This document shows, piece after piece, positions 6,018 through 25,025 of a stretch of DNA of 33,190 nt. A model generated the notes under the pieces. It had not been told where the DNA came from and did not search any database. It saw only the letters and a list, made by a program, of their open reading frames with translations. Position 1 is the first letter of the stretch; each line of letters begins with the position of its first letter. Both the position numbers and the translations under genes were made by a program. Source of the DNA: Rubripirellula sp. (GTDB taxonomy: Bacteria > Planctomycetota > Planctomycetia > Pirellulales > Pirellulaceae); contig JAPKCI010000049.1 in assembly GCA_028823035.1 (NCBI GenBank), positions 1-33,190 of the forward strand, in the 5' to 3' direction.

Positions 6018-6371
6018 ATGACAAAACTAATCATATTACTTCTTCTGTATATGTTTCCGCTCCTCGCCTGGGGCGGCGACAAACCGAACATCATATTCAT
6101 TCTTTCAGACGATGTCGGCACAGGTGACATTAAATGTTACTACAAACCATCGCAGGTAGAGACGACCAATATCGACATACTGGCTGCACAGGGAATGCGT
6201 TTCACGCAGGCCTATGCTCTTGGTTCAGTTTGCTCACCTACTCGCTATCCATGGGTCGTCAGCCCCAGCAGACTGGCAAACGCACTGGGTTACCAATTCA
6301 AGTATTCGTGCCGTGAGACGTTGCAGCGGATCATCAACGGATCGAAACTTGGCGAGACGCGATCGACATGA
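6018..6371 (+). pseudogene. Sulfatase N-terminal fragment, frameshifted
   Basis: Starts with a clear signal peptide, then the sulfatase opening DKPNIIFILSDDVGTGD with the metal-binding Asp pair. It continues through NIDILAAQGMRFTQAYALGS to the formylglycine motif C-S-P-T-R (about residues 73-77), followed by Y. After that the frame fails. The family continuation (a ...MTGRYPxRTG type string) is found one frame over as MGRQPQQTGKRTG near 6250-6290, and that frame stops at about 6316. The original frame drifts to a TGA at 6369-6371. Only about 95 of the usual 430-550 residues remain, so it cannot be a working sulfatase. The terminal TGA overlaps the ATG of the acyltransferase gene, an accidental or inherited coupling. 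Confidence 0.8.
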
Positions 6372-7786
6372 CCCGTTCCTTCCCTCTTACCACGTTCGAA
6401 GAATTTCTGTATTGGCAAGACCGGCCCGCATATCCGTGTAGTTGCTTCATACGACTGCAGTTTTTTGGGCGACTGATGCGTCCCGCGTTGGAGAGCGCGT
6501 TACAGACAACTTTGGAACGTCACGTCCTGCTACGATCGCGCATCGAGCAACGGGGGCGACGGCTAAATTGGGTGCCTGACGAGGAGCCGCAACCGCGGAT
6601 CACATGGTCCACTGGCCCAACCGGCGGCCCCATGCCAACAGCAACCCATCTGGACCTCACGAAAGAAATCGGCTTGCGATTGGCGATCGTTGAATCGCCG
6701 GACGAAACGACATCCGCGTTGACGCTCCAGTTCCATCATGCCTGTTGCGATGGAGCTGGCATCTTCAACTTCATTAATGATCTACTTATCTCGTACGCAC
6801 TGGAGACAGGCGAGTCGTCGGAACGCGTTCGGCTACCGGACTTGGATCCGCAGCGACTGGCCCAGCGCGGCGACTATGGATTGTCCGCCACAGGGTTTAT
6901 CAAGATCTTTCGCAAACAACTGATCGGCCTGCAGGGCGCCTGGCAGTTTCTTCGGCGTGCGCCAACGCCGCTCCTTCCCCATGAGGTTCATTCCCACGAC
7001 GCTCCGCCGCCCGAGCAGTACCCAACGATCGTTTCTCACCGTTTTGATGCTGATGAAACGCGGGCGATGCGCGACGTCGCCAAACGGCAACAAGCGACGT
7101 TCAACGACCTCTTGGCGAGAGACATCTTCCTGGCCATGGCGGACTTACGGCGTGAAAGTCTAGTTTCAGATTCGGCGTCTTCCGCAAGCGGCTCGGAAAA
7201 CGACTGGCTGCGCATGATGGTGCCGATGAACTTGCGTAGCAAGGACGATCGCTTGTTACCCGCGGCGAATGTCGTCAGCTCCGTTTTCCTGGATCGTCGA
7301 GGAAAGCAATGCGACCGACCGCAGAAACTGTTACAAAGTATCCACGACGAAATGCAATTGATCCGTGACAATCAACTAGGATTGACATTCATTTTCGGTC
7401 TGAAGATTTCGAAGCTTCTTCCTGGCGGATTGCGTAAAGCTGCTCGCAAAAACAAATGCACCACCACATGCATTTTCACGAATCTTGGCAAGCCTTTGCT
7501 ACGTTGCCGATTACCCAAACAGGATCAACGTCTGGTGGCCGGCAACGTCGTCCTGGACGACATGAAATTACTCGCCCCAATCTGCCCCTACAATTGCGTG
7601 ACGTTTGCTGCAAACCATTACGCGGATCGACTTTCGATCACCCTTCACTACGATCCGCGAGCCATCTCTGCAGCGGTCGCGCAAATGCTGCTGGACAAAT
7701 TCGTGCAGCATTGCAAAAAATCCGTCGGCGGCGCTGCGCCCATTCCAGTGCTTAATGGAACCGCAGTAGCCAATGTGCCGCGTTGA
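6368..7786 (+). CDS. Condensation-domain acyltransferase-like protein
   Basis: A stand-alone 472-residue protein of the NRPS-condensation / PapA / wax-ester-synthase superfold. The active-site motif HHxxxDG is intact as HHACCDG (residues 123-129), preceded by the usual ALTLQF strand. The N-terminus (FPLTTFEEFLYWQDRP) matches the first helix of such domains, and LERHVLLRSRI is the normal companion segment. No carrier-protein or adenylation domain is attached. Known relatives transfer acyl groups from CoA or carrier thioesters to alcohols or amines; the substrate here is unknown. Its ATG lies in an ATGA overlap with the dead sulfatase. With the MMPL exporter and reductase downstream it recalls acyltransferase-plus-MmpL lipid loci (inference). 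Confidence 0.82.
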   Translation: MTRSFPLTTFEEFLYWQDRPAYPCSCFIRLQFFGRLMRPALESALQTTLERHVLLRSRIEQRGRRLNWVPDEEPQPRITWSTGPTGGPMPTATHLDLTKEIGLRLAIVESPDETTSALTLQFHHACCDGAGIFNFINDLLISYALETGESSERVRLPDLDPQRLAQRGDYGLSATGFIKIFRKQLIGLQGAWQFLRRAPTPLLPHEVHSHDAPPPEQYPTIVSHRFDADETRAMRDVAKRQQATFNDLLARDIFLAMADLRRESLVSDSASSASGSENDWLRMMVPMNLRSKDDRLLPAANVVSSVFLDRRGKQCDRPQKLLQSIHDEMQLIRDNQLGLTFIFGLKISKLLPGGLRKAARKNKCTTTCIFTNLGKPLLRCRLPKQDQRLVAGNVVLDDMKLLAPICPYNCVTFAANHYADRLSITLHYDPRAISAAVAQMLLDKFVQHCKKSVGGAAPIPVLNGTAVANVPR

Positions 7787-7830
7787 GCGACAAGGAAAAG
7801 GTCCGTTCATCGTTGGGACCGGGCCGCGCG

Positions 7831-7842
7831 TTGGGCGCCCAA
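7831..7842. promoter_or_regulatory. 12-bp perfect palindrome (possible operator)
   Basis: ttgggcgcccaa is a perfect palindrome, extendable to 18 bp with one mismatched pair. It lies 45 bp after the acyltransferase stop in the gap between convergent genes. No regulator is known. Chance is a real alternative. Confidence 0.2.
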
Positions 7843-7876
7843 TGCGTTTGCCCACTGGCCCTCATTCAAGCCAGAG

Positions 7877-7893
7877 GGAACTCGAGAAGTTCC
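7877..7893. terminator. Hairpin between convergent genes
   Basis: Inverted repeat ggaact / agttcc (6-bp stem, 5-base loop cgaga). It sits between the acyltransferase (plus) and the glycosyltransferase (minus). It has no T-tract on either side, so it is a weak candidate for a shared terminator. Confidence 0.2.
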
Positions 7894-7991
7894 GACGTGG
7901 GCCACCGCTCCTGCACCAACGGTGTTGAATGACGGATTACGCCCCAACAGCGAACTTACTGACGCGTGACATCGTGCAGAGTAAGAGGCTA

Positions 7992-9266
7992 TCAGATGAC
8001 GGATTCAGTAGGGTCTGTACCGCTGGGCGAAACATAGGGGTGGTAGGCAACCATCTCGACGTCGCGGTCACCATGGATCCGATATTCAATCCCGCGCCAC
8101 GAGACCGTCCGTTTGCAGAGAGCTGTGGCGAGAGCAAAGGGATACAACACTTGGGTCAGCAGCATCGCCGCGGATACCCGCAACAAGTCGCCCCATCCTT
8201 GCCAACGGATCGGTTCCCCGTGGAGAGCCACCGTTCGACGAATCGCAAGCTCAATTATCAAAATCGCAAGCAGAGAGCTTCCCCAATAGGTCGCAATCCC
8301 GCTGCCCGCGATGACGGCCACTGGCACGTTGCCAGCGATCACTCCCGTGGCAACCATCGCGATAGAAAGTCCTTGCGTGACGGCCAGATTCAAGGCGTGT
8401 AGGCCAACAAATCGCCAACCGGAACCACACGACTTCGCGGCAAGTAATTGTCGCTGTACCCAGCGCACGAAGCTTCCTGTAGTAATCTCCTCCCGATTCA
8501 CCATCATCACAGTTGGTACGAAGTGAACGCGCAATCCGTGTTCGTGCATTTTTCGGTGAACGGTAGCATCATCCACAAAAGCTCGCTGCCAGGCCGCTAG
8601 CAACTCCACTTTGTGAATCGTCGATATCCGCATCGCCATACTGCCCGCCCAAGTGATCCTGTTCAGCCAGACTTGGACAACGGCCCCCGCATTCCAGCAA
8701 TAGCGGATCCAGGATCCCCACCGACGGCCGCTGGGCACGTACCATCGGTTTCCGGTCGCGACACCCACGGATTCGTCTGCGAGCGGACTCACCAACTCCG
8801 CCAGCCAAGTAGCATGTGGCAGCACATCTCCATCCAGAAAGGCAGCTACCTCATACGTCTCGTCGATTTGTTCCAGCGCCTTGATCAACGAACTGCATTT
8901 CAGACTGCAGGTGGTGTGTGGGGACTCCAGTACACAGATATTCAAGCGTTCAGATGCATCGTTTGCACGCAACGCTTCCACATCGCGTAGGACGGGATCT
9001 TTGGCATGATCGACAACGACAAAGATCGAGTAGTCTTCGTAGTCTTGCTTGAGCAAACGACTTAAACAATCCGACAAATAGGGATCCGGTCCACGCAGCG
9101 CCAAAATGACGGCAGCACGCGGCCTTGTCTGCGGCGCACTGTCCGTTGGCCTAGCGGAACCAAACCTTCGCACAAACGCTAGCACAACGCCGATTTGACT
9201 AACGGACAGAATGAAACAGAGTCCGAGCGCGACGCAAGCCGTGATGACCATGGAATGCTCTACCAA
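7992..9266 (-). CDS. Membrane glycosyltransferase, GT2 family (paralog A)
   Basis: A 424-residue membrane GT2-type enzyme. It has an N-terminal helix (about 7-32), a GT-A catalytic domain starting AAVILALRGPDPYLSDCL (51-68), the DxD metal/nucleotide-sugar site as FLDGDVLPHATW (D145, D147), and an RWVQRQLLAAK segment in the usual QxxRW position. Several helices follow at about 300-385. Likely reaction: transfer of a sugar from a nucleotide donor to a membrane lipid, on the cytoplasmic face (family knowledge plus inference). It shares with paralog B (16003-17349) the strings CSLKCSSL, ATGNRWY, RGIEY and YHPYV, so the two are clear duplicates. Its start overlaps the stop of the upstream methyltransferase by 7 bp, which indicates a two-gene operon. 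Confidence 0.85.
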   Translation of the reverse strand: MVEHSMVITACVALGLCFILSVSQIGVVLAFVRRFGSARPTDSAPQTRPRAAVILALRGPDPYLSDCLSRLLKQDYEDYSIFVVVDHAKDPVLRDVEALRANDASERLNICVLESPHTTCSLKCSSLIKALEQIDETYEVAAFLDGDVLPHATWLAELVSPLADESVGVATGNRWYVPSGRRWGSWIRYCWNAGAVVQVWLNRITWAGSMAMRISTIHKVELLAAWQRAFVDDATVHRKMHEHGLRVHFVPTVMMVNREEITTGSFVRWVQRQLLAAKSCGSGWRFVGLHALNLAVTQGLSIAMVATGVIAGNVPVAVIAGSGIATYWGSSLLAILIIELAIRRTVALHGEPIRWQGWGDLLRVSAAMLLTQVLYPFALATALCKRTVSWRGIEYRIHGDRDVEMVAYHPYVSPSGTDPTESVI

Positions 9267-10141
9267 CTAACATGAACGACTTTGAACAGATGACGCGAAG
9301 GTGAAAACAGTCTCCGCCCCCACCTACGGAATAGCGACAACCGTGGCATTCCATCGTCATAAGACGGGGAATCCCCGAATCCAACATACTGCTTCACGTG
9401 GAAGCGAGAATCACAGCGTTCGACCCGACGCACGTTTGCCAAGCTGAATCGAAGCTTCGAATCAGGCAGCCGGTGGCGAAGATTCGAAACCATCAGGAAC
9501 CACGGAGACTGCGCAGTGAAGACAACGTCACAGCGCGGAAAACGATCGGCCATTTTGGTAAAACGATCGGCCATTTTGGTAAAACGATCGGCCATTTTGG
9601 TAAAACGATCGGCCATTTTGGTAAACAGTGTACGAATTTCGGTTTCAGCGAAAAAGCGCAAGACTCCTTCGAGCGTAAATAGCACGTAGTCGCCGCAATG
9701 CTGTCGCACTTCGTCAAACCAGTCTGGATCCAGCAACGACTTGCCGATCGTTCGACGCCGATCCCCGTCTGGGATGAATTGGTTAGGCAACCGAATGACC
9801 TCGGGCAAATCCAGTCCGATCCGATGCGCTTGTCCATTGCAAATACGATCACTGCGGGTGTCCAGACCCACACCGAGTTCCACGATCCTGTCATCCGGGA
9901 GGTTAACCGGGTATTCGGCGACCAGCCGGTCGAACACGGACGCTCGCAGGCAATCGTCCACCGCCCGCACCGATTTTGCTTCGAATCGATGAAATGGAAA
10001 ATCCAAATCCGCCACTGTCGACACGGCTTTTTCATCATGCAGCAACGCGGCCGGATGATGACTTTCCTGCGCACGCGCCCACAGTGGCATGAGCAGCGTT
10101 GCCTGAGCTTCGGTGAGCGCCGTAACGTCGATTTTAGGCAT
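9260..10141 (-). CDS. PPM/LCMT-like SAM methyltransferase with internal tandem repeat
   Basis: A 293-residue O-methyltransferase of the leucine-carboxyl-methyltransferase / polyketide-associated family. The SAM motif ELGVGLDTRSDR (88-99) matches the family's GxGLDTR signature. IGLDLPEVIRLP (108-119) is the usual acidic second motif, and YVLFTLEGVLRFFAETEIR (152-170) the usual next helix. That helix then contains TKMADRF four times (174-201), where relatives have one copy, so 21 residues are inserted in a helix near the catalytic core. The frame stays open, so the protein may still fold. It is the first gene of the minus operon with glycosyltransferase A. Substrate unknown; an acid or hydroxyl of the locus product is a guess. 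Confidence 0.8.
   Translation of the reverse strand: MPKIDVTALTEAQATLLMPLWARAQESHHPAALLHDEKAVSTVADLDFPFHRFEAKSVRAVDDCLRASVFDRLVAEYPVNLPDDRIVELGVGLDTRSDRICNGQAHRIGLDLPEVIRLPNQFIPDGDRRRTIGKSLLDPDWFDEVRQHCGDYVLFTLEGVLRFFAETEIRTLFTKMADRFTKMADRFTKMADRFTKMADRFPRCDVVFTAQSPWFLMVSNLRHRLPDSKLRFSLANVRRVERCDSRFHVKQYVGFGDSPSYDDGMPRLSLFRRWGRRLFSPSRHLFKVVHVSW
9539..9622 (-). repeat. Four exact copies of a 21-bp tandem repeat inside a methyltransferase gene
   Basis: Units at 9539-9559, 9560-9580, 9581-9601 and 9602-9622 are identical. Each encodes TKMADRF in the gene direction. The unit length is divisible by three, so copy changes keep the frame. Exact identity suggests recent slippage expansion, or possibly an assembly artefact. 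Confidence 0.96.
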
Positions 10142-10314
10142 CGGTGCATTTGGTTGGAATCGTCAAACAGTAGCTGTCCATCGTAGCCGCCGAGCCCCTG
10201 GATTCAATGCGCAAACCTGAGAACTCGTCGCAAAATGCCCGCAAGGGCCGCCAGTTTGCACGTCGACTGCGGCCAACTATCATGGTAAGGATCGACCGAC
10301 ATTGAGAACCTGTC

Positions 10315-11286
10315 ATGCCAACTTCCCAATCCGCCCCTATCACTGTGCCCGATCCATTGACGGAGCCGCTTCGTGATACGCGGTATCTGGTCAAATTGAT
10401 CTCGACCATTTCCGGCGTTGCAGAAGAGGATGTGGCAGAACAACTTTGGCGTGAACATCAAGACATTGGTTGTTCCGTCGCGGCGGAGTTGAAACGCAAA
10501 AGCATACGGCCGTACGAATGGTCCGCGGAACTCCTTGATTTCTATCGCGAAACGAATTCCTTTCTATACGAGACGACGGTTTGGAATCGGTCACCCGAAA
10601 AGAACGAAATGCGACGCTGGATTGCGAACTATTTGGCAGCAAAGGACGGGAAACCTCAACGCATCTTGACATTCGGCGATGGGCTGGGCTTCGACAGCTT
10701 GTATCTCACGCAAGCAGGGCATCAGGTGGACTATCATGATGTCTCGGCCGATGGAGGAAGTTTCGCCGCCCGCTTATTTCGTGATTTCAATGCGGATGTT
10801 CGCATCCTGAACAACGCGGAAGATGTCGTTGACGACACCTACGACGCGGTCGTCTGCCTGGACGTCCTGGAACATGTCCCATCGCCCCCGGAACTTGTCA
10901 ACAAACTGGCTCGAGCTATCCGTCCAGGTGGAAACTTCATCGTGCACGCTCCGTTTTGGTACGTCGCGCCGGCAGTCGCCACTCACTTGCGCAGTAACAA
11001 GAAATACAGTGGTGATATCGCGAAACTGTACGCCCCCTGCGGATTGGTCCCCGTCGATGGACAGCTTTTCCTCAATCCATTGGTGCTTAGAAAATCAGGC
11101 CAGCGATCTGCCCCGGAAACTGCGCCGGTCACAACGTGCGGTGGCGTGCCGACAGCCATTCGCATTGGAAGTATTCTTTTGAAGACGGCTCGAATCTGCG
11201 ACTGGCCCCATCGGTTGTACTTGCGATGGGGATATGGCAAGCGTTGGAAACCGTGGCCAGAGCTTAACGAATTACGTCGCACTTAG
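10315..11286 (+). CDS. Class I SAM-dependent methyltransferase
   Basis: A 323-residue Rossmann-type methyltransferase. Motif I is ILTFGDGLGFDSLYL (117-131). The acidic end of strand 2 is VDYHDVS (138-144). Motif IV is YDAVVCLDVLEHVPSPPEL (176-194), and AIRPGGNFIVHAPFW (201-215) is the post-motif strand. The N-terminal 110 residues are a separate helical region. The C-terminus is basic (RWGYGKRWKPW). The substrate cannot be read from sequence. The gene is divergent from the PPM-like methyltransferase (173-bp gap, a likely shared promoter region) and lies next to the broken methyltransferase and the exporter, so a tailoring role in the same pathway is inferred. The start at ATG 10315 is the first in frame after the gap. 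Confidence 0.85.
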   Translation: MPTSQSAPITVPDPLTEPLRDTRYLVKLISTISGVAEEDVAEQLWREHQDIGCSVAAELKRKSIRPYEWSAELLDFYRETNSFLYETTVWNRSPEKNEMRRWIANYLAAKDGKPQRILTFGDGLGFDSLYLTQAGHQVDYHDVSADGGSFAARLFRDFNADVRILNNAEDVVDDTYDAVVCLDVLEHVPSPPELVNKLARAIRPGGNFIVHAPFWYVAPAVATHLRSNKKYSGDIAKLYAPCGLVPVDGQLFLNPLVLRKSGQRSAPETAPVTTCGGVPTAIRIGSILLKTARICDWPHRLYLRWGYGKRWKPWPELNELRRT

Positions 11287-11289
11287 CGG

Positions 11290-11637
11290 TTGCGTGATGT
11301 CGACGGGCGAAAACTCCGGCTGCATTCGTTCACCCTATTCAGCACCAATCCGCTGAAAGATCTCGTCGTTGGGCGCAACGTCTGTGGGGACCAGCGTCAT
11401 CCCGCGCGTACGCTCGTCCTTTGCCATGTGCGACGTGATCGGAGCTCGCCCGGCACCCAGTTCAACAATCTTGTCCAAGTCGTGTCGCACGGCCAATTCC
11501 AACACGACATCAGCAACTTACGCATTGAAGGACCGCAAGCCGGAGTTACAAGCGTCCATGGCCTCGAACAGGCATTCGCGTGCCCCGCTGGGAATCCAAG
11601 CCTGATCACAGAATTCGAATAAATATAACGGTTTCAT
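11290..11637 (-). pseudogene. Methyltransferase remnant with two in-frame stops
   Basis: Reading from ATG 11637 on the minus strand gives MKPLYLFEFCDQAWIPSGAR, then ...LRSFNA, TAA (11520-11518), and in the same frame VADVVLELAVRHDLDKIVELGAGRAPITSHM (quoted over two segments: residues 41-58 and 59-71), then TLVPTDVAPNDEIFQRIGAE, TAG (11337-11335), GERMQPEFSPVDITQP. The GAGRAP segment is a SAM-binding motif I, and LVPTDV is the strand 2 acidic motif. FNA-stop-VADVV suggests a lost Tyr or similar residue. The sequence ends against the neighbouring methyltransferase stop at 11286, so the C-terminal half is missing. It was a third methyltransferase of this locus, now dead. No long ORF exists here because of the stops. 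Confidence 0.75.
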
Positions 11638-11839
11638 CTCACAGCTTGATTTTGGCCACCCGACCAGAAGCAGATGGCTAATATGGTACGAGTTTGGCGA
11701 GCAAGAGACACACGTTTGCCACGATATTGTGAGCAAGAATGGCATATTGCAGGTTGAAGCAATTCTCCAGTTGCGTACAGGGAGTCAGCGTCATACGCCC
11801 CCCTCCTATCCCCTCCCGTCCCCTCTCACACTTCGTTCC

Positions 11840-14182
11840 ATGGCCCAATCGCCTTACTTTCGATTTCGCCTGATCGTCTTCGCTTGCTTTGTGCTGGCGG
11901 CGCCGTGGGTGGTCTTCGGTGCGCGAGAAGCACTGCGCAACGCGGGTACGAGCGTGGAGGAATGGCTGCCGGAGTCTTTCGAGGAAACGCAGAAACTGCA
12001 ATGGTTTGCCGAGCATTTTGTCTCGGATGATCTGCTGCTACTCAGCTGGGAAGGATGCACTTTAGAGGACAAACGACTGCAACGGCTGCAGGCGGAATTA
12101 TCCCGGCCGATCCAGCTCCCCAGCGGCGGTGAAACAACCGTCTTCCGCAAGCTCATCAGTGGCCGTGATGCGCTGGATCAACTGATGGCGGAACCACTGA
12201 ATATGCCAGAGGCTGCCGCCAAAACGCGTTTGCAAGGCTGGCTACTGGGACCAGAGAACGACCAAACATGCCTGCTTGCCTTGATGTCTCCGGATGGCTT
12301 GAAGAACCGCTCCCTGTGGTTTGCTCATATCTACGACAGTGCTGATCGCGTCCCCGGTTTAGAACGTGATCAGATCCGCTTTGCCGGCACAACTCGCGAT
12401 TCCGAAGAAATCGACCGCGCCAGCAGCCACCTTCTGATGGAAATGAGCGTTGCATCGCAGGCGCTCTGTTTCGTGCTGATGCTGGTTCTGTTCCGCGATG
12501 TCATCCTTGCTGCTTGTCTATTTATTAATGCGTTGTTCTGTCAACAGCTTAGTTTAGCTCTGGTGACTTACAGCGGATTCCAGATGGACAGCGTCATGCT
12601 AATGGTGCCGTCGTTGGTGTACGTGCTCACTGTATCGGCAGGTGTCCATATCATAAATTACTATCGTGACACCAGCCATGAGTTGGGCTCGGACGGAGCG
12701 CCCCTTCGAGCCGTCAAGGATGCATTGGCGCCCTGCGTTCTGGCGGCCTCGACAACCGCCGTGGGACTCAGTTCGCTGGCAATCAGCTTTTTGACGCCGG
12801 TAAGAAAGTTCGGGATTTGCGCCAGCGCCAGCTTGCTGATCGCCAACGTCGTCTTGTTTACCTTGCTACCGTGTCAACTGGAACAGATCGCTCTTTGGAA
12901 GCGGAAGCGGAAGGCTACCGCAGCGAGCAACCCGCAAAAAACTTCTTGGCGGTGGCTACTGAGCATCGTTGGTAAGGGCAAGTATGTCATTCACGTGTTG
13001 GCTATCGCCGTACTCATTTTCAGTGGATGGGGTATTACGAGAATTCGTTCGTCCGCAGGCGTCCATAGCCTATTGCCCGCCGATGCCGCGATCCTGCAGG
13101 ACTATGAGTGGGTCGAAGATCGCATCGGTCCACTGATCCCAGTGGAAATCGTCTTGCGGGTGCCCCTCACGCCACAGCCCGCGACGGGCAGCCGTGGGAA
13201 GTTCATTGATCGCTTGCGACTGGTTGCACAAGTTCACGGCAAGGTCGCTCAATTGGATGACGTGGGCGTTGTGGTTTCCCCACTGAACTTTTTGCCGCGT
13301 ATTCCCCCCTCCGGCGAGACGATGCGACAGATAGCCAAACAAGTTGTGTTGAATAGGAAGCTGGAAGCAAATGCTGACGCACTGGTGGAAGCAGCCATGC
13401 TCCGTCACAACGGTACCGAAGAACTTTGGCGGATTAGCGTGCGAGCTTACGCTGGGAAACGCCACAACTATGTAAATTTGCTGAACGAGATCGAAACGGC
13501 CGTCGGCCCCGTTGTGAAGGGCGCGGATGCGTTGGGGCTAAATGACGTATCAGCCGTCTTCTGTGGAGGCGTTCCGTTGGTCCAAAAAGTTCAGGACCAA
13601 ATGCTAATCGACCTGATCAACAGCTTTGTCACCGCCTTTGGGATCATCACCGTCATGATGATCCTATTGATGATTGGCTTTGCTCGCGGTCACCTGCGGC
13701 AAGCCTCCCGTCGCTCGGATCGGATGCGCATCGTGTTGGCCAGAACTTTCGCTGGCGTGGTCAGTATGATCCCCAACCTGATTCCGTGTGTTCTGGTCTT
13801 AGGTGGCATGGGCCTCGCTGGCATTCCACTCGATATCGGGTCGATCATGACGGCCGGCGTGGCATTAGGAATCGCGGTGGACGACACGCTTCACTTCATC
13901 ACTTGGTTTTGCCGCGGGCTGCAGGACGGACGTAGCCGATCAGAGGCCGTCGAATACGCGTATTCGCGCTGCGCCTCCGCGATGACACAGACCTCCCTGA
14001 TCTGTGGACTGGGGCTACTTGTCTACAGCTTCAGCGATTTCGTGCCCATAGCGCGCTTTGCGTGGTTGATGTTTGCCATGCTTTTCGCAGCCGTTTTGGC
14101 AGACCTGATCATCCTCCCAGCAGTGCTCCTGGGCCCACTAGGCAAGCTCTTCCATTATCCCCAAAACTGCGAATCCCGATAA
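11840..14182 (+). CDS. MMPL/RND-superfamily lipid exporter
   Basis: About 780 residues with the two-fold RND/MMPL layout: helix 1 (LIVFACFVLAAPWVVFG), a periplasmic loop, five helices (about residues 205-350), helix 7 (VIHVLAIAVLIFSGWGI), a second loop, then five helices to the end. The second helix bundle carries GIAVDDTLHF (about 676-685), the paired-Asp motif of MMPL-like exporters, implying proton-driven transport. Family members export lipids, hopanoids or siderophore-like molecules. A GTG at 11729 would add 37 residues of low-quality sequence. ATG 11840, just before the first helix, is preferred, though neither has a good ribosome binding site. It is followed 213 bp later by the reductase on the same strand. 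Likely exporter of the locus product (inference). Confidence 0.88.
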   Translation: MAQSPYFRFRLIVFACFVLAAPWVVFGAREALRNAGTSVEEWLPESFEETQKLQWFAEHFVSDDLLLLSWEGCTLEDKRLQRLQAELSRPIQLPSGGETTVFRKLISGRDALDQLMAEPLNMPEAAAKTRLQGWLLGPENDQTCLLALMSPDGLKNRSLWFAHIYDSADRVPGLERDQIRFAGTTRDSEEIDRASSHLLMEMSVASQALCFVLMLVLFRDVILAACLFINALFCQQLSLALVTYSGFQMDSVMLMVPSLVYVLTVSAGVHIINYYRDTSHELGSDGAPLRAVKDALAPCVLAASTTAVGLSSLAISFLTPVRKFGICASASLLIANVVLFTLLPCQLEQIALWKRKRKATAASNPQKTSWRWLLSIVGKGKYVIHVLAIAVLIFSGWGITRIRSSAGVHSLLPADAAILQDYEWVEDRIGPLIPVEIVLRVPLTPQPATGSRGKFIDRLRLVAQVHGKVAQLDDVGVVVSPLNFLPRIPPSGETMRQIAKQVVLNRKLEANADALVEAAMLRHNGTEELWRISVRAYAGKRHNYVNLLNEIETAVGPVVKGADALGLNDVSAVFCGGVPLVQKVQDQMLIDLINSFVTAFGIITVMMILLMIGFARGHLRQASRRSDRMRIVLARTFAGVVSMIPNLIPCVLVLGGMGLAGIPLDIGSIMTAGVALGIAVDDTLHFITWFCRGLQDGRSRSEAVEYAYSRCASAMTQTSLICGLGLLVYSFSDFVPIARFAWLMFAMLFAAVLADLIILPAVLLGPLGKLFHYPQNCESR

Positions 14183-14395
14183 AATCACGATGTCTTTGGC
14201 GGGAAGACGACCGAAGACGCCCCATGCTGCCTATACTGCCAAAGTTGCCTGCGACTCCACGGCAGGTTAAGCTGATTATGCAAGAGGGGCCCGTTAGCGG
14301 CGCACCCACCGGCCCCGCAAGGTGTCCTTTCGCTCCGCTGGAAAATCCGCGCGGGGCGACATGTGCAACGTGAGTCATCAACCTGAGTCCTTATC

Positions 14396-15925
14396 GTGAA
14401 AGACTACATCCTACTAACTGGAGCCACAGGGCTTCTTGGTCGTTACCTGCTGCGTGACCTGCTAGCCAGAGGCCGCAAGGTTGTCGTGGTCGTTCGGCCA
14501 ACCAAACACCTCAACGTGCGTGAACGGATCGAACAGATCTTGCAGCAATGGGAGTCGGAGTCCAATTCATTGTTTCCTCGCCCCGTGGTGTTCGAAGGCG
14601 ATATCTGTGCCGAGTTTCTGGGGCTGAACGACACACAGCGTCAGTGGATCGCCGACAATTGCTCGAGCGTTCTCCATAGTGCGGCGACGTTGACTTTCCA
14701 TAGCCAGAAGAATGGCGAACCATGGCGTACGAATGTCGGCGGCACGGAGCACATGCTGCAGTTGTGCGAAGTCGCTGACATCCGCGAACTTCACTACGTT
14801 TCCACGGCCTACGTGTGCGGCCTGCGCGCGGGGACCATTCAGGAAGATGAGCTTGATTGTGGTCAGGACTTTCGCAACGATTACGAACAGAGCAAACTGC
14901 AGTCGGAGACACTGGTCCGGTCGGCCAAGCACATTGATTGCTTGACGGTTTACCGGCCCGCAGTCATTGCCGGCGATTCGGTCACAGGTTTCACGAATAC
15001 CTATCATGGGCTCTACATGTATTTGCACATGATGTCGGTCGTGAACCGCAATACGACACCGGACGCGGACGGTCGACGACACACGCCGGTTCGGTTGAAA
15101 ATGACGGGCGACGAACCGCGCAATATTATACCGGCGGATTGGACAAGTGCCGCGATTGTCGAATTGCTCCTTAACGATCAGGCTCATGGACACACGTTCC
15201 ATCTGGCTCCTGAAAAGCCATTAACTCCCAGGGAAATCATGGAAGCGGGGTACGAATACTTTAATTCGTATGGAGTCGAATTCTACGGTCAGCCAATCAG
15301 CAGTGATGGTGCGGGGGATCTGCTGACACGTAACGCTCATGACAGCATGAAAATGTACAAGCAGTACGAACAGAACGATCCCTGCTTCGATACTACCAAT
15401 CTGAAACGATTCGCAGGACATCTGTCCTGCCCCGCCATCGACAAGCCCATGCTGCATCGCTTCTGGGCTTACGGCGAAGAAGATCGCTGGGGAAGACGCC
15501 GTTTGCCGAAACCAACGATTCCATTCGACGCGAGTGAGCTCATGGCGATGGCCCGGCAACATTTCGCGGCAACCGAGGCAACGAGTGATCCGTTGACGAC
15601 AGTCGGCTTGAATGTCAGCGGCCCTGGTGGCGGCCAATGGTCGATCGATCACAACGCGACACGGATCATCAAAGTTCGCCCAGGCATCGCCGCCAACGTG
15701 AGCAAAGTGGTAACACTGACGAGCGAACAACTTGCATCCCGCTTGTCGCACGGCCAATCCAAGACGGAGATTGAAAAGCTGTTGGCGATCGCATTTGAAC
15801 GCGCGACATCACCGGCCCCAAATACACCGTTGGAATCCAAAAACAATGGCGACGCCGGCGGTGAACGAACGGAATTCGCATCCGCCGTGGCTCTCGCTTT
15901 GAATCCGGATCCGCAACAGGAGTAA
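14396..15925 (+). CDS. Thioester-reductase-like SDR (NAD-binding_4) with possible SCP2-like tail
   Basis: A 509-residue extended short-chain dehydrogenase of the Lys2/CAR thioester-reductase and fatty acyl-CoA reductase type. The NAD(P) motif TGATGLLG is at 8-15, the arginine-containing VVVRPTKH at 31-38, the catalytic Ser/Thr within YVSTAYVCG (134-142), and YxxxK as YEQSK (163-167). Such enzymes reduce acyl thioesters to aldehydes or alcohols. From about residue 403 an extra domain begins SGPGGGQWSIDHN and continues with KVRPG, VVTLTSEQLASRLSHGQ and a closing helix. This reads like an SCP2-like lipid-binding fold (tentative). Translation starts at GTG 14396; no nearer ATG fits the Rossmann start. 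It would fit release or reduction of a carrier-bound or CoA-bound acyl chain in the lipid pathway. Confidence 0.82.
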   Translation: MKDYILLTGATGLLGRYLLRDLLARGRKVVVVVRPTKHLNVRERIEQILQQWESESNSLFPRPVVFEGDICAEFLGLNDTQRQWIADNCSSVLHSAATLTFHSQKNGEPWRTNVGGTEHMLQLCEVADIRELHYVSTAYVCGLRAGTIQEDELDCGQDFRNDYEQSKLQSETLVRSAKHIDCLTVYRPAVIAGDSVTGFTNTYHGLYMYLHMMSVVNRNTTPDADGRRHTPVRLKMTGDEPRNIIPADWTSAAIVELLLNDQAHGHTFHLAPEKPLTPREIMEAGYEYFNSYGVEFYGQPISSDGAGDLLTRNAHDSMKMYKQYEQNDPCFDTTNLKRFAGHLSCPAIDKPMLHRFWAYGEEDRWGRRRLPKPTIPFDASELMAMARQHFAATEATSDPLTTVGLNVSGPGGGQWSIDHNATRIIKVRPGIAANVSKVVTLTSEQLASRLSHGQSKTEIEKLLAIAFERATSPAPNTPLESKNNGDAGGERTEFASAVALALNPDPQQE

Positions 15926-16002
15926 TGACTGGGATCCAGGATGATTGTCTGCTGTCGTTGATTCGCTTACGCTTCTGATCAGGCTGGGTTACACCTTTAC
16001 CG

Positions 16003-17349
16003 GTGGTAGGCACGACTGACGCCGGCCCGATTCACCTCCACCGCAATCGCTGGATTTGCCCGTTGGATACTGCTTCCTTGATAACTTTGTATGTTTTGGC
16101 CGGACTGGTGATCGGCCAGGGCGTGCTGGTCGTTTGGTTTACCTGCGCGCTTTGGCGCTGGAAACGACCCCTGCTCGCTGACGCGGCGGCCCCACCGGCT
16201 GCCATCATCCTCTGTTTACGCGGCTCGGATCCTTTCCTGTCCGACTGCCTGGCCGGACTGTCGCGGCAAGATTATCCAAACTTTCAACTGCATGTCATCA
16301 TTGACCATCCGGAAGATGAAGCACGCGACACATTGGATGCGTTTGTGCAGCGTTGTGCCGGAGCGAGTGACGAAGCGGTGCGCAGGTTCGCCGAGCGTTT
16401 GGTGGTACACTTTCTGGCGACTCCTCTGGAAACGTGCAGTTTGAAGTGCAGTAGCTTGCTACAGGTGGTAGAAACTCTGGATCCTGGGATTCAGTTTATC
16501 GCACAATTGGACGCCGATGCCGTCCCTCATCCCACCTGGTTGCGGGAACTGGCGACCGCCTTGCAGGACGACCAAGTGGGAGCTGCCACAGGCAATCGTT
16601 GGTACATGCCTGCCACTCCTTCCCTGGCGGCATCGATTCGTTATGCCTGGAATGCCGCCGCAGTTGTCCAGATGTTTTCGTATCGCATTCCCTGGGGCGG
16701 AACCCTGGCGGTGAAAACAAGGTTATTGCGTGATGATGATTTGCTGAACAAGTGGCAACATTCCTTCTGCGAAGACACCCCACTCTTTTCCTATCTGAAA
16801 TCAAGGCGATTGCGGGTCGCCTTTGTACCTTCCCTGCTGATGACCAATCGTGAAGACTGTACGCTCGGCGGGTTCTTTCACTGGGTGAAGCGTCAATTAC
16901 TGACAGCTCGCCTACACCATCCAGCGTGGCCGGCGGTCGTTGGGCACGGCGTTGTTACCACCGTCGTGCCCTTGTTCGCGATCGGATTGTTCGTCGCAGC
17001 CGTCTGGCAACGTGACGCAGCGGTGCAATTCTATGCCTCCGCAGGCGTGATCGGATATGGCATTGGAATTCTGGGGCTGCTGATTCCCATGGAAGTCGCG
17101 GCACGACGAATCGTCCGTGGCCGTGGACAGGATGCATCCTGGACATCGATGTTCGATCTAGCCAAAATCGCTGTCGCTGTACCGCTGACGACCCTGGTGT
17201 ACGCAGTGGCACTCACCTCGGCCTGCACGATGAAACGAACGGTATGGCGCGGGATTGAATACGAGATTCAATCCGGCAAACGAGTGCGGATGTTGGGTTA
17301 TCACCCGTACGTTCCGCCCGCGCAAATCGAACAGCCGGTATCGCTATAA
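16003..17349 (+). CDS. Membrane glycosyltransferase, GT2 family (paralog B)
   Basis: Up to 448 residues; paralog of the gene at 7992-9266. The N-terminal helix is ITLYVLAGLVIGQGVLVVWF. The GT-A domain starts AAIILCLRGSDPFLSDCLAG, the DxD site is QLDADAVPHPTW, the shared CSLKCSSL precedes it, and HWVKRQLLTAR replaces the QxxRW region. C-terminal helices follow, ending RGIEYEI and YHPYVPP. The start is uncertain: GTG 16003 gives an N-terminus about 20 residues longer than paralog A, while an in-frame TTG near 16061 would match A better. Follows the reductase by 77 bp on the same strand. Two GTs suggest either two sugars added in turn or two related acceptors (inference). Confidence 0.84.
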   Translation: MVGTTDAGPIHLHRNRWICPLDTASLITLYVLAGLVIGQGVLVVWFTCALWRWKRPLLADAAAPPAAIILCLRGSDPFLSDCLAGLSRQDYPNFQLHVIIDHPEDEARDTLDAFVQRCAGASDEAVRRFAERLVVHFLATPLETCSLKCSSLLQVVETLDPGIQFIAQLDADAVPHPTWLRELATALQDDQVGAATGNRWYMPATPSLAASIRYAWNAAAVVQMFSYRIPWGGTLAVKTRLLRDDDLLNKWQHSFCEDTPLFSYLKSRRLRVAFVPSLLMTNREDCTLGGFFHWVKRQLLTARLHHPAWPAVVGHGVVTTVVPLFAIGLFVAAVWQRDAAVQFYASAGVIGYGIGILGLLIPMEVAARRIVRGRGQDASWTSMFDLAKIAVAVPLTTLVYAVALTSACTMKRTVWRGIEYEIQSGKRVRMLGYHPYVPPAQIEQPVSL

Positions 17350-17831: not shown

Positions 17832-18962
17832 ATGAGACCTCATTTGCTTTTGATGATTTTCACTGTAGTTTTTCTGGTCAGTCCTGTTCTTGGTGAGGGG
17901 GATGCCGACTACGAGATCTTCCTTCGCTACGCCGATTCTCCGGTGGTGGAATCGGACTGGAAGCTGACCCGGGCGCGGGTCGTCTACAAGGGATCACCGG
18001 CAACGCACGAGGAAAGGTACCGGGTGATTCCCTGCGTGGCCCGGATGCCCGATGGGACGATTGTGGTAGCCGTGGAACCGGGAGGCCACAAGCCGATCTT
18101 CATTCGTTCCAGCGATGGTGCTCGGACTTGGTCCAGGCCTTACCATGGCGTGCTGGGAGAAGAAGTTCGCACGATAAGCACGATCGGTGTGCGGCGAGAT
18201 GGCCGGCTAATGGCTGTCTCGGAGAAGCCGCTGCGACTGGCGTACAGTGAGGACCAGGGCAGGACCTGGACCAGTGGGAAACTGATCGACACCGGCCCGC
18301 TCAAGGGGAGCTGGGTCTGGACCGGCGGCCGCCCCATGGAACTTGAGGATGGGACGCTGGTGATCCCGGTGGCAGGCTACCTCCAGCCAGGCTGGCTAAG
18401 CGCCGGCGTGGCTCGCAGCACGGATGACGGTGATAACTGAGAATTTGTCGTGACGGGCCACGGGAATCCCGACAACCAGATGATCTTCAGTGAACCGACG
18501 ATGGCTGTTCTCTCGGACGGATCGCTGGTGGCGCTGATGCGTACCGAGGATCGTGTGAATGAAATCATCCCGGGTGATCCGCGTGGGGAACGAACAGGGC
18601 TCTGCCGCGTCAACAGCATCGATGGAGGAAAGACATGGACAAGCCCGATCGAGACCCTCACCGGGTCTCATCGCTCCGTGGTGGAACTGCCCGGCGGTGT
18701 CCTCTTGTGTGGGTATCACCGTGCGCCGCGACTGGCGTTTAGTAGCGATGCGGGACGAAGCTGGTATGCCAACAAGCTCTGAGTGACCGACAAGCCTCGC
18801 AGCGACTGGGGCTAGTACACGGTTGTCGAGATGGTCGACAAGACGACGGCCGTGGCCTTGATCAAGGAGATGATGACTCCCAACACGATCCAGGCCTGCC
18901 GGCTTCACCGGCGGTTGCCGCTCTGCGAACGCCCAATAGTCCAAGGGCGAGAGGAGCGATGA
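17832..18962 (+). pseudogene. Exo-sialidase (BNR/Asp-box) pseudogene with three in-frame stops
   Basis: A secreted sialidase-like beta-propeller. The signal peptide starts at ATG 17832 behind a GGAG. RVIPCVARMPDGTIVVA is the RIP-like entry motif. Asp-boxes (SxDxGxxW) occur as SSDGARTW (degenerate), SEDQGRTW, STDDGDN-stop, SIDGGKTW and SSDAGRSW. The third box has TGA (18438-18440) exactly where Trp belongs. The frame then continues unchanged through two more boxes to TGA 18780-18782, continues with VTDKPRSDWG to TAG 18813-18815, and on with YTVVEMVDKTTAVALIKE and NTIQACRLHRR to TGA 18960-18962. Same frame throughout, so these are point nonsense changes and not frameshifts. A full-length product would be about 376 residues. 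Sequencing error or readthrough is less likely given three stops. Confidence 0.85.
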
Positions 18963-18984
18963 ACATAACAGTGATGAGCAATAG

Positions 18985-19152
18985 TGGATCACGCTGCGTC
19001 GAGCCTACGTTGCGCGATGCGGCATTTCGGGTCTGCTGAAACGCAAGCCCCTGATCATTCCCAGCATGCGGTACAAGTGCCTGAATCTCCTGATACGTTT
19101 CCTGCCGCGGACTGTCGCGACGGGGCTCGCAGATATCGCCGGGAAGTGGTAG
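18985..19152 (+). pseudogene. SDR C-terminal fragment
   Basis: A frame between TAG 18982 and TAG 19150 reads RRAYVARCGISGLLKRKP, then LIIPSMRYKCLNLLIRFLPRTV. This matches by eye the C-terminal tail of DltE-type short-chain dehydrogenases (VARxxLxGLxRGKxxVxPG...LxxLxRLLPRxL). The Rossmann core and active site are absent upstream, so this is a relic. The rest of 18963-19342 shows nothing else recognisable. Confidence 0.45.
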
Positions 19153-21211: not shown

Positions 21212-22132
21212 TTGGGTGTGCCGTTCAATCAAATGTCGAGCGAGAGGTATCCCAAGGATCGCAAAGGTGAGTCGTTTGACTGGTCGGCGTTCGACTTACC
21301 CGACGAGGCATTCGGCGACGGCAAGATAACCGATTGGTCGATCGACAAGATCAAGTCGCAGGCTGCGGACAAACCGTTTTTTTTGGCCGTCGGGTTCTAC
21401 CGTCCGCACATCCCGCTGTATGCACCAAAGAAATACTTCGACTTGCATCCACTCGAGACCATCCGGTTACCCGACACGATCGATGATGATTTTGCAGACG
21501 TGCCAACCGCTGGAAAGGAACGAGCGCCAAATGCCGTCGGTGCGGGAACTCATGCGCACGTGATCAAGCACAAGCAATGGAAACATGCGGTCCAGGCATA
21601 TTTAGCAAGTCTCTCTTTTGTCGATCATCAAGTGGGTCGCCTGCTGGATTGTCTGGACAACAGCCAACATACGGACAATACCATCGTTGTTCTGTTTAGC
21701 GATCACGGCTGGCACCTTGGAGAGAAACAAGCGTGGGGCAAGAGTTCAGGTTGGGTTCATTCGACACAAGTTCCGTTGATCATTAGTGGCCCAAAAGCGA
21801 AAGCTGATGAACTGTGCGACGAGCCTGTGAGTTTGCTGGATCTCTACCCAACACTATCCGAAATGGCTGGTCTCCCATCACCCGATCTGGGTGGCGTTTC
21901 GTTGTCGGAGCTGTTGAAGAATCCCTCGGCCGACACCAATCGTGTCGTGAAGACTTACGTGAATTCGGACGACTATGTGCTAAGTGGTAAACGGTGGCGA
22001 TACGTTCGATACGGCGACGGCGGCGAAGAGCTTTATGATGCCCTGAATGACCCGAGGGAATACGAGAATCTAGCCGGAAGCAAGTCGCATCAACGAACGA
22101 TCAAAGAGTTCCACGACCGGGTGCACGAGTAA
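21212..22132 (+). pseudogene. Iduronate-2-sulfatase-like gene lacking its N-terminus
   Basis: An open frame of 306 residues matching the middle and C-terminal parts of iduronate-2-sulfatase-like enzymes: FDWSAFDLPDEAFGDGKITD, PFFLAVGFYRPHIPLYAPKK, YLASLSFVDHQVGRLLDCLD, the metal-site SDHGWHLGEKQAWGK, THVPL-like STQVPLIISGP, and a normal C-terminal ELYDALNDPREYENLAG. The first 130-150 residues are missing. There is no signal peptide, no DD metal pair and no CxPxR formylglycine site, so catalysis is impossible. The upstream DNA belongs to the divergent thioredoxin-like gene, which places a deletion junction near 21200-21240. The nominal start is TTG 21212. Confidence 0.82.
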
Positions 22133-22146
22133 GAGAGCTGGTCGGC

Positions 22147-23271
22147 TTGGCCAATGCCGCAACTGCAGAGAAGCCTAACTTAATCGTTGTTCTCACTGAC
22201 GATCAAAGCTGGGTGGGGTCGTCTGTTCAAATCAAACCGGATGATCCGCGAACGCGCAGTGACTATTACCTGACACCAAATATGGAACGAATGGCACGCA
22301 TGGGCATGCGGTTCACACAGGGGTATTCGCCGGCTGCGTCTTGCTGCCCGATTCGCCATGCCCTGCAGACCGGACAGTTCCCTACCAGGCACGAATACAA
22401 TGCGGATCGAAAGGACTGGACGGATACCTACGCCGAGCAGCCGAACATTCCGCGGATGCGCAAGGCGACGGACGATCGTTACGTTACTGCTCACTTCGGC
22501 AAGTGGGATTATCGCTACGACGAAATTTCACCAGCGGAGCAAGGCTACGATTTTTCGGATGGCGATACCGGCAACAAGACAGGTGGCGGCAAGGGCAGCG
22601 GCGGGCCGACATCCACGCCGGATCCAAAACGCATTGATACGATCACGGACCAGGCGTTGCATTTCATCAATCGAAATCACCACCGAAACAAGCCGTTCTA
22701 CTTGCAAATTTCTCACTACGCTGTGCATTTGGACATTTTCTATAACCAGCGCACTCTAGAGGAGGTCCGGAAACGGTCTCCCGTACAAAAGCACACCATG
22801 CCAGAGTTTGCAGCGATGACGAGCGATATGGATGCTGGCATTGGACACATCTTGGACAAGCTTGAAGAGCTAAAACTACAGGAAAACACTTGGTTGATAT
22901 TCATGTCTGACAACGGCGGGCGAACCAGTATTCCGAAAGCACCCGATGGCAGCGAAGATCTCAACTCGCCGCTTCGTGACGGGAAACACTCGTTTTACGA
23001 AGGTGGTATACGGGTGCCATTTTTCGTGATTGGACCTGGCGTCCAGCCGGGATCCGTAAGCGACGTGCCAGTGAGTGGCGTTGATATTCTTCCCACGCTA
23101 GCCGACCTGGCGGGATACTCGAAACGTTTGCCGAGCAATATCGACGGCGGTTCCCTGCGAGAGGTTGCACAAAGCAAGGGGGTTGGCAACGTTCGGAGCT
23201 GCGCGATCAACTTCCGAATTCGAGCACGAAGACACAGGACTTCCTGTTGCAGTCGGATGACGTCGACATGA
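22147..23271 (+). pseudogene. Sulfatase missing its signal-peptide start and C-terminus
   Basis: The core sulfatase is well kept: EKPNLIVVLTDDQSW with the metal Asp pair, the formylglycine motif C-C-P-I-R (66-70), a GKWDYRYDE segment, and LIFMSDNGGRTS with the second metal site. GGIRVPFFVIGPG and VSGVDILPTLADLAGYSK follow. The nominal start is TTG 22147, in LVGLANAATA, which looks like the end of a signal peptide whose front half is lost. The frame upstream runs into the preceding sulfatase end (stop 22130-22132). After about 23190 (SKGVGNV) the homology ends and the last 25 residues are junk, just where a minus-strand transposase remnant begins. About 100 C-terminal residues are therefore missing. 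A residual cytoplasmic product might be made but would be neither exported nor complete. Confidence 0.75.
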
Positions 23272-23544: not shown

Positions 23545-23754
23545 CAGACAGCACGGCTGTATCGCGAGGACCGATGGTCTCTGTTGGAATATGGAAAAAT
23601 CGGCGAGTTGTACGACACGGAGAACGACTCGACGCAGTACACAAATCTTTTCAGCAAACCCGAATACGCAGAGATCGTAGCCGGACTAAAACAGAAGCTG
23701 AAGGCGAAGCTGGTCGAAGTCAGCAAGAATGACCTGAGGAAAGAGAAACCATGA
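23545..23754 (+). pseudogene. Sulfatase C-terminal fragment
   Basis: Directly after an in-frame TGA (23542-23544) come 69 codons: YREDRWSLLEYGKIGELYD, then TENDSTQYTNLFSKPEYAEI and a basic helix to TGA 23752-23754. R-W-x-L-x-E-Y followed by ELYDxxxDxxxxxNL is the standard last strand and helix of iduronate-2-sulfatase-like enzymes. It is not the tail of the 21212 gene, which has its own. It could be the lost end of the 22147 sulfatase or of another. Its stop overlaps the DUF1552 start as ATGA, so an intact sulfatase once headed the operon. Confidence 0.7.
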
Positions 23755-25025
23755 TAAAACTTGACCGTCGCAATCTTCTTCGTGGACTCGGTGTTTCGAT
23801 TGCATTGCCGGCGTTTGATTCATTGCATGCTGCAAACGACAATAAATCGAACGCAAACGCGAAACGCTTTGTCTGTGTGTCTCCGAACTACGGAATGAAC
23901 CCCGGTGGCTTCTTTCCGGAGCAGACCGGCGCTGATTACGCAATGCCGCTGCTGCTGAAACCACTGGAACCGCATCGTCGAGACCTGAGCGTTTTCACGA
24001 ACCTTGATCACCCGGGTGTTGGTGGTGGGCACGGATGTTCTCAAACGCTGCTCAACGGTTTCGAATTGAAGGACACGAAGGATCGTCCTCAACGATTGGA
24101 GTCGCTGGACCAGTTCTTGGCGGGGCACCTTGGCCAGGCGACAAGGTTTTCGTCATTGTTGCTCGGTGGTGGTGTTTCGTGGTCACGGGCGGGAATCAAA
24201 TTGCCGACCGACGGTGATCCGGCGCGAGTCTTTACGAAGCTGTTCGTCAATGACAACCCGAAGCTGAAGCAGCAAACTCAACAATTCATTGACGAAGACA
24301 CAAGCATCCTCGATGTCGTTCGGCAAGATGCAAAACGTCTCAATGAGAGGCTCGCGAAGGCCGACAAAGACAAGCTCGACCAGTTCCTTACCGCGATCCG
24401 CGAAGTAGAACGCAAGTTAAAACGCCAAGCGGACTGGCTCGACATTGCCAAACCGAAGGCCAGCGACGAAGTGATTCGAGGCGGCGATGCTGACGACACA
24501 ATCGTTGATCTTGAATATCCCTACAACACTTCCGTCATGTACGACCTGATGCTGCTCGCGCTGCAAACGAATTCTACAAATGTCATTTGTTACGGACATC
24601 CTGGTGGAAACCGACTGTTTCCTTTTGAGGGAATCACGTTGGGTTATCACTCACTGACGCATCACGGGAAACGGCCAGACCTGCTCAAGGAACTTACGAT
24701 CATTGAGACTTTCTATACGGCCCAGTTTTCCCGGTTTCTGGAAAAACTGAAGGAGACTCCTGACTCGAATGGACAGTCGTTACTGGAATCGACGGTCGTA
24801 CTGTTTGGCAGCGGGATGGGGAACGCCAGTTCGCATTCCAGCCGGAACTTGCCGATCATGGTTGCCGGTGGCGGGTTGCGCAGCGGTAGCCATCATCGCT
24901 TCGAACGGCATGGTCGTGATGGTCGACCGCTGTCGGATCTGTTCGTCACGATTCTCCAGCAACTGGGAATCGAACAGGATGCGTTTTCCACTAGCACTTC
25001 GAACCTGAATCATTTACTCACATGA
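23751..25025 (+). CDS. DUF1552 secreted protein (Tat signal)
   Basis: A 424-residue DUF1552 family protein. The start MIKLDRRNLLRGLGVSIALP carries an RR-containing, Tat-like leader (residues 1-27, cut near LHAAN). The family strings GGFFPEQTGADYAMPLLLKP, FTNLDHPGVGGGHGCSQTLL, LDQFLAGHLG and FGSGMGNASSHSSRNLPIMV are all present. Length is normal. Family knowledge: DUF1552 genes in planctomycetes and related phyla nearly always sit beside a DUF1592/cytochrome c gene, as here. The fold resembles the DUF1501/alkaline-phosphatase-like group (tentative). Biochemical role unknown. It is coupled by ATGA overlaps to the sulfatase fragment upstream and the cytochrome gene downstream. Confidence 0.92.
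   Translation: MIKLDRRNLLRGLGVSIALPAFDSLHAANDNKSNANAKRFVCVSPNYGMNPGGFFPEQTGADYAMPLLLKPLEPHRRDLSVFTNLDHPGVGGGHGCSQTLLNGFELKDTKDRPQRLESLDQFLAGHLGQATRFSSLLLGGGVSWSRAGIKLPTDGDPARVFTKLFVNDNPKLKQQTQQFIDEDTSILDVVRQDAKRLNERLAKADKDKLDQFLTAIREVERKLKRQADWLDIAKPKASDEVIRGGDADDTIVDLEYPYNTSVMYDLMLLALQTNSTNVICYGHPGGNRLFPFEGITLGYHSLTHHGKRPDLLKELTIIETFYTAQFSRFLEKLKETPDSNGQSLLESTVVLFGSGMGNASSHSSRNLPIMVAGGGLRSGSHHRFERHGRDGRPLSDLFVTILQQLGIEQDAFSTSTSNLNHLLT

Follow-up and report, generated by a model that had tools for sequence, protein, structure and literature searches.

What product might come from an 11-kb gene set that combines an acyltransferase, membrane glycosyltransferases, methyltransferases, an exporter and a thioester reductase is the question raised by a 33,190-nucleotide stretch of DNA from Rubripirellula sp. 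(Pirellulaceae, Planctomycetota), here called the window, which is an entire contig (JAPKCI010000049.1, our C370) of a 7.4-Mb assembly in 523 contigs. Between positions 6368 and 17349 lie, in this order, a condensation-fold acyltransferase (COND, + strand), a first GT2 glycosyltransferase (GT2a, -), an LCM-type methyltransferase (-), a Methyltransf_23 methyltransferase (+), a dead methyltransferase (-), an MMPL exporter (+), an SDR thioester reductase (+) and a second glycosyltransferase (GT2b, +), and the Pfam and family matches of the window genes are far above chance. A first-pass annotation, made from the letters alone, had proposed lipid biosynthesis and export from COND with its HHACCDG motif, the paralogous GT2s with CSLKCSSL, the MMPL protein with GIAVDDTLHF and the SDR, all of which we recover at the positions it gave. 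Our own reading, which we hold at a probability of roughly 0.5, is that the locus may make and export an acylated, O-methylated glycolipid on a long-chain alcohol, with product and reactions predicted from sequence.

In the pathway we envisage, an acyl thioester - most likely from type II fatty acid synthesis (FAS II) - would be reduced by the SDR to the aldehyde and then to the alcohol, the chain perhaps being held by an extra domain of the SDR, and the two GT2s, working at the membrane, would attach one sugar or two. Hydroxyl or carboxyl groups would be methylated by one of the intact methyltransferases or by both, COND would put a second acyl group on a sugar or chain hydroxyl in the fashion of PapA enzymes, and MMPL would carry the product outward. 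This proposal draws on the linkage of the families in relatives, on conserved residues and on solved relatives that comprise a reductive-release domain, a ceramide glucosyltransferase and the acyltransferase for phthiocerol dimycocerosate (PDIM).

The SDR (14396-15925, +) matches Pfam NAD_binding_4 (164.4 bits, 3.7e-48; cut-off 20.1) and keeps the YxxxK motif, with Y163 and K167 invariant in 30 aligned rows; its score against the NCBIfam thioester-reductase model TIGR01746 is 140.2 bits, under the cut-off of 213.35. Searched against solved structures as a profile it finds the polyketide reductase domain of MxaA (1.9e-43), as a single sequence it finds reductases and dehydratases, and its predicted structure (pLDDT 85.5) has 4u7w as best fold match (1.1e-23). 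Past the reductase fold runs a tail of ~70 residues (about 400-471), absent from the first-pass annotation, which carries a conserved GPGGGQW and for which the model gives four strands and two helices, with pLDDT of about 86-94 in the strands and about 61 in the final helix. When 12 such tails were scanned singly (E<=1), SCP2 matched six (best 1.9e-5) and the alkyl sulfatase C-terminal family likewise six (best 2.9e-4), and a profile of all 12 matched the C-terminus of a Lactamase_B-domain chain (7tl5, 3.7e-6), SCP2-type chains (0.012-0.084), an alkyl sulfatase (0.021) and an unrelated-looking Roundabout chain (0.048). On this weak evidence the tail is likely SCP2-like across the family and may be so in the window copy. 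Related SDRs occur in named records from Pirellulales, Pirellulaceae, Planctomycetales and Planctomycetaceae assemblies, and in our tree the window SDR falls into a 24-row group (98/100), separate from SDRs linked to polyketide synthases (PKS), its position inside the group being without resolution.

COND (6368-7786, +; 472 residues) reaches the Pfam Condensation cut-off (30.9 bits; cut-off 30.6) and has the active-site motif HHxxxDG, in which H124 and D128 do not vary across 24 rows. Its profile, built from the same number of rows, matches the PDIM acyltransferase 8s6l (9e-14) and the wax synthase-type WSD 7nxg (2.5e-7), and a single-sequence search returned 8s6l alone (0.011); PDIM biosynthesis is one of the mycobacterial PapA-MmpL lipid pathways. 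Since COND stays below the curated NCBIfam cut-offs for PapA5 (42.6 bits; cut-off 396) and WS/DGAT (47.2 bits; cut-off 309.95), we regard it as a putative PapA-like O-acyltransferase that belongs to neither model. No second COND or SDR was matched in the window's own genome at E <0.02 (next best 0.287 and 0.0226). The COND frame overlaps by 4 bp a chimeric remnant (6018-6371, +), likewise missing from the first-pass annotation, in which an N-terminal piece of a sulfatase (Pfam Sulfatase, 2.6e-8, residues 23-77) is followed by the C-terminal tail of an NAD-dependent epimerase/dehydratase, recognisable in the last ~40 residues. This tail is 60% identical over 30 residues to an Epimerase-family frame in a relative (G027, L111:8147-9217), where the Epimerase-family frame precedes COND with a 4-bp overlap as in the window.

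GT2a (7992-9266, -; Glyco_tranf_2_3 5.2e-16) and its paralogue GT2b (16003-17349, +; 2e-13) are predicted membrane glycosyltransferases that share 40% identity over 370 aligned positions, and the DxD motif and third catalytic aspartate (D170, D172, D258) are invariant in 35 rows. For both, the best NCBIfam model is HpnI (TIGR03472; 83.9 bits for GT2a, 65.0 for GT2b), whose cut-off of 310 neither reaches. The GT2b profile (35 rows) finds a solved ceramide glucosyltransferase (26qf, 1.1e-19), a search of solved structures with the single GT2b sequence gave no match, and its structural model has a pLDDT of 92.4. HpnI is the glycosyltransferase that adds glucosamine to bacteriohopanetetrol, and both it and ceramide glucosyltransferase act on lipid-alcohol acceptors.

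The tally of two intact methyltransferases and a dead one, given in the earlier annotation, holds, albeit with a weak match for the LCM-type protein (9260-10141, -), an open frame that scores 17.3 bits, under the Pfam cut-off of 22.3. A perfect in-frame tandem repeat in this gene (21 bp x 4.1 at 9539-9625, repeating FTKMADR) adds 21 residues relative to three aligned relatives and is either a true expansion or an assembly artefact. The class I methyltransferase (Methyltransf_23; 10315-11286, +) scores 49.1 bits, and the third gene (11284-11655, -) is truncated, has at least two in-frame stops and is 47% identical to an uninterrupted 270-residue frame in a relative (G061, L043:5348-6160). The GT2a-LCM neighbour pair recurs in G008 (L044) at 48% and 53% identity, there with a Methyltransf_23 relative alongside; other Methyltransf_23 relatives adjoin the SDR in G016 (L104), GT2a in G060 (L053) and a GT2 in G204 (L127). 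The exporter (11729-14182, +; Pfam MMPL 57.2 bits, 1.8e-15, cut-off 20.5) is weakly similar to HpnN (38 bits, NCBIfam). Because long matches in relatives mostly begin at about residue 30-56 of its frame (few at 12-26), translation more likely starts from the ATG at 11840.

Whether these genes belong together was addressed in 100 family genomes (the window's own and 99 others), with gene maps of the relatives' loci drawn from tblastn, linkage taken as within 20 kb on the same contig, and E limits that differ by family (GT2 0.001, SDR 1e-30, COND 1e-10, MMPL 1e-60). GT2 is present in 28 genomes, SDR in 47, COND in 57 and MMPL in 65, the counts for the last three including a PKS-linked arrangement (see below). 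At least two of the four families are linked in 30 of the 99 other genomes, which, together with the solved relatives named above, supports the earlier reading of lipid biosynthesis and export. Among genomes with both members, linkage was found for GT2-SDR in 11 of 22, GT2-COND in 8 of 24, GT2-MMPL in 3 of 15, SDR-COND in 17 of 39, SDR-MMPL in 12 of 31 and COND-MMPL in 6 of 40, so that all six pairs exceed chance (linked in 3 to 17 genomes vs 0.27-0.51 pairs expected per family pair under random placement in 7 Mb). All four families come within 20 kb in just two other genomes, with the orders COND-SDR-MMPL-GT2b (G026) and SDR-MMPL-COND-GT2-GT2 (G059). A 6.5-kb run of SDR-GT2b-COND-methyltransferase-GT2a is found in G060, MMPL-SDR-GT2b in a named record (L002) and GT2a-LCM-methyltransferase in G008, and MMPL relatives adjoin SDR, COND or GT2 in other family genomes. 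Epimerase-family genes adjoin set members in G027 and G016, and in G024 COND and MMPL are surrounded by genes for an EryCIII-like glycosyltransferase, an NDP-hexose 2,3-dehydratase, a GDP_Man_Dehyd/Epimerase-family protein and a nucleotidyl transferase, suggesting that sugar supply may there be encoded within the gene set. The G024 locus (L101) also has two COND genes and, besides MMPL and the deoxysugar-type genes, a polysaccharide pyruvyl transferase-family gene.

Where the acyl chain would come from is less plain from the window itself. Searches with PF00109 and PF00698 gave no ketosynthase (KS) or PKS-type acyltransferase (AT) match inside it, the genome's matches all lying on other contigs, and the ten open reading frames (ORFs) scanned with Pfam between 6018 and 17349 include no FadD-type ligase or PKS. 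The earlier remark that a chain-building enzyme is missing therefore stands for the window locus and fails for the gene set at large, as a PKS belongs to it in two relatives, G013 and G072. Their reducing PKS (2626 and 2994 residues; KS-AT-DH-ER-KR-ACP-reductase, with an additional MT domain after DH in G072) adjoins COND and GT2b, and at E<=1e-30 no stand-alone SDR is matched in either genome. In the tree, a fully supported branch of great length sets the PKS-fused reductase domains apart from every SDR, so a different reductase seems to have taken the place of the SDR in these genomes. More distant SDRs figure in a third arrangement (G018, G080, G043, G090, G019, G037), together with a large PKS, COND, MMPL, an AMP-ligase and a class III aminotransferase; the PKS of G018 has two KS stretches, an AT, three carrier domains and a KR. 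Within this arrangement, loci L085-L092 (G018, G080, G043, G090) conserve MMPL, a metallo-beta-lactamase-fold gene, the large PKS, a phosphopantetheinyl transferase and a Rieske oxygenase, along with SDR, thioester reductase, class III aminotransferase, AMP-ligase and COND, a cluster suggestive of a pathway to an amino-lipid or amide.

Acyltransferase-domain searches in 14 chosen genomes (E<=1e-10) gave a single match, a FabD-sized frame of 304-316 residues, in G026, G059, G024, G016, G040 and G061, and additional, longer frames in the remaining genomes. The first five of these possess GT2, SDR and COND (G040 lacks an MMPL match at 1e-60), which makes FAS II the likeliest chain source as judged from gene content and lends support to the first-pass suggestion that acyl chains come from primary metabolism. 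As completeness is 92% for G026, 99% for G059, 78% for G024, 89% for G016 and 99% for G040, a PKS may have been overlooked, chiefly in G024 and G016. The window's own genome has one FabD-sized frame and, on contig C163, a KS-AT-C-A-T-TE hybrid, the only type I PKS found. A short contig of the same genome (C505, L074) carries a ketosynthase, a 3beta-HSD-like SDR and a 98-residue frame that is ACP-like by eye, with no Pfam match at 1e-5; these are possible further lipid genes. Taken across the family, we tentatively propose, and would grant it somewhat less than an even chance, that Pirellulaceae may hold a modular, so far undescribed class of glycolipids, exported and built on fatty alcohols freed by reductive release, in which the release step is exchangeable - a FAS-fed reductase that stands alone and bears an extra, probably lipid-binding domain, or a PKS-fused reductase domain - and the sugar, acyl and export modules stay the same.

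A number of observations weigh against a single glycolipid pathway. The (Q/R)xxRW motif of GT21-like ceramide glucosyltransferases is absent from both GT2s, which have RQLLA (GT2a) and RQLLT (GT2b) where the profile aligns RMIRW of 26qf; the window SDR's own tail, scanned alone, gave no SCP2 match; the G060 SDR does not fall into the window's SDR group; and no intact sugar-nucleotide gene is found among the Pfam-scanned window ORFs. The locus is partly eroded, with a dead methyltransferase and an epimerase reduced to its C-terminal tail, which may mean that the pathway is shedding components in the window, and these marks of decay are compatible with a pathway no longer active in this organism. 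In many genomes the families lie apart, often with a solitary member: SDR, COND with GT2, and MMPL are spread over three contigs in G016, the SDR is away from COND and GT2 in G040, and in G068 it has none of the other three families beside it. The neighbourhood that the first-pass annotation expected to be conserved in other planctomycetes is thus borne out by the linkage counts and contradicted by genomes such as G016 and G068. With GT2 missing from 72 of the 100 genomes and MMPL relatives widespread, part of the linkage may be loose. Neither of the two sampled congeners has GT2, SDR or COND; in the 20 kb read of one (G046), the window's right flank (23751-28749) is kept at 72, 69 and 49% identity, the locus is absent and the left flank was not matched. 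Phylum-wide, GT2 (E<=1e-30) occurs in six of 199 genomes, our own counted, and in four of the five others (L125-L128; G168 left out) it stands alone among the families queried in three and beside a methyltransferase in G204. The window might also hold parts of separate small pathways - GT2 with methyltransferase, COND with epimerase, SDR with MMPL - that came to lie side by side by chance, some of them decaying: sub-pairs do occur apart (GT2a-LCM-methyltransferase in G008, methyltransferase-GT2 in G204, SDR with methyltransferase in G016, epimerase-COND in G027), broken genes lie inside and beside the set, and only two genomes unite all four families. We nonetheless consider this unlikely, given that every family pair is linked above chance and that the linked pairs share members, as in G026, G059 and G060.

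Instead of proceeding to the alcohol, the SDR might halt at the aldehyde, with transamination and N-acylation by COND then giving an amino- or amido-lipid. This is what the third arrangement would suggest, and an AMP-ligase-like gene (25-28% identity) adjoins three SDRs of the window's own group (L118, L119, L120); yet the scanned window ORFs include no aminotransferase or ligase, the aminotransferase-linked SDRs fall outside that group, and the window has GT2s instead, so we think the idea improbable. To our minds there is similarly little chance that the GT2s add sugar to a hopanoid or sphingolipid, with the other genes serving that lipid. HpnI as best NCBIfam model, the weak HpnN likeness of MMPL and the ceramide glucosyltransferase match would all fit, but the GT2 scores are far under the HpnI cut-off, and a squalene-hopene-cyclase C-terminal match above 320 bits was found only in G016, G040 and G061 of 12 genomes searched, the best in the window's genome reaching 77.7 bits, above the Pfam cut-off yet weak. 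That the C163 hybrid makes the chain, being the sole type I PKS detected in this genome, seems highly improbable: it terminates in a thioesterase domain, the genes read in its surroundings include no set member, and in the five relatives with GT2, SDR and COND no such PKS acyltransferase was detected. The FAS II-fed glycolipid remains our preferred reading.

A promoter and terminator scan found sigma-70-like and terminator-like sites in the locus region at chance level only. The contig starts with a tandem repeat (126 bp x 10.8 at 7-1365, 79% matches). Downstream of the locus lie a BNR-repeat (sialidase-like) gene broken by in-frame stops (17832-19100), a sulfatase without its N-terminal part (21212-22132; the match begins at profile position 149 of 301) and more sulfatases at 22147, 27451 and 29708.

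To our knowledge, planctomycete envelope lipids have been little studied, and lipid export by PapA-like enzymes with MMPL proteins mostly in mycobacteria. In line with the first-pass view that the gene set is no described pathway, the papers listed by our literature searches, which covered few subscription journals, include neither a description of it nor a matching characterised cluster; predicted cluster classes are all that the consulted part of a Pirellulaceae description from 2026 offers (PMC13190842). Going by the portion of PMC4183827 consulted, the mycobacterial diacyltrehalose pathway has a PapA-kind acyltransferase that acts with an MmpL transporter, and the window likewise combines an acyltransferase, with a PDIM enzyme as best solved relative, and MMPL. 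In contrast to this system, however, the window locus has no ligase or PKS, has a thioester reductase and ceramide-glucosyltransferase-like GT2s, and its COND is far under the PapA cut-offs. The cyanobacterial heterocyst glycolipid pathway, as far as its legend and the adjoining text go (PMC10569477), includes a thioester reductase and ends with the glycosyltransferase hglT, a pairing the window shares, HglT being likened by description and not by sequence; according to the same excerpt it has KS/AT-type genes of its own where the window has none, and the acyltransferase, methyltransferases and MMPL are extra in the window. The swf cluster of sponge symbionts, product unknown, is described in the section consulted (PMC3908369) with a monomodular KS-AT-DH-ER-KR-ACP synthase and a thioester reductase domain, which resembles the G013 and G072 PKS, and with a sulphotransferase and a radical SAM protein where the window has GT2, COND and MMPL. 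The Pfa-like secondary lipid synthases, for which the excerpted text of PMC3098273 gives iterative PKS-type lipid synthesis and names the planctomycetes Gemmata obscuriglobus and Planctomyces limnophilus, are possibly related to the large PKS that accompanies SDR relatives such as that of G018, a gene that the window is without.

With HpnI and ceramide glucosyltransferase, finally, the window GT2s have in common the GT2 fold, the DxD motif with the third aspartate and membrane helices, and they differ in scoring under the HpnI cut-off and in having RQLLT or RQLLA at the position of (Q/R)xxRW. By the tests applied to its sequence, the locus resembles both the PapA-MmpL and the reductive-release glycolipid pathways and is a member of neither. 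Since some of the named genomes bearing the set have a built-in PKS and others lack one, the chain's origin is open to test, and the comparison predicts a concrete product to look for, namely a FAS II-fed, methylated acyl glycoside of a fatty alcohol.

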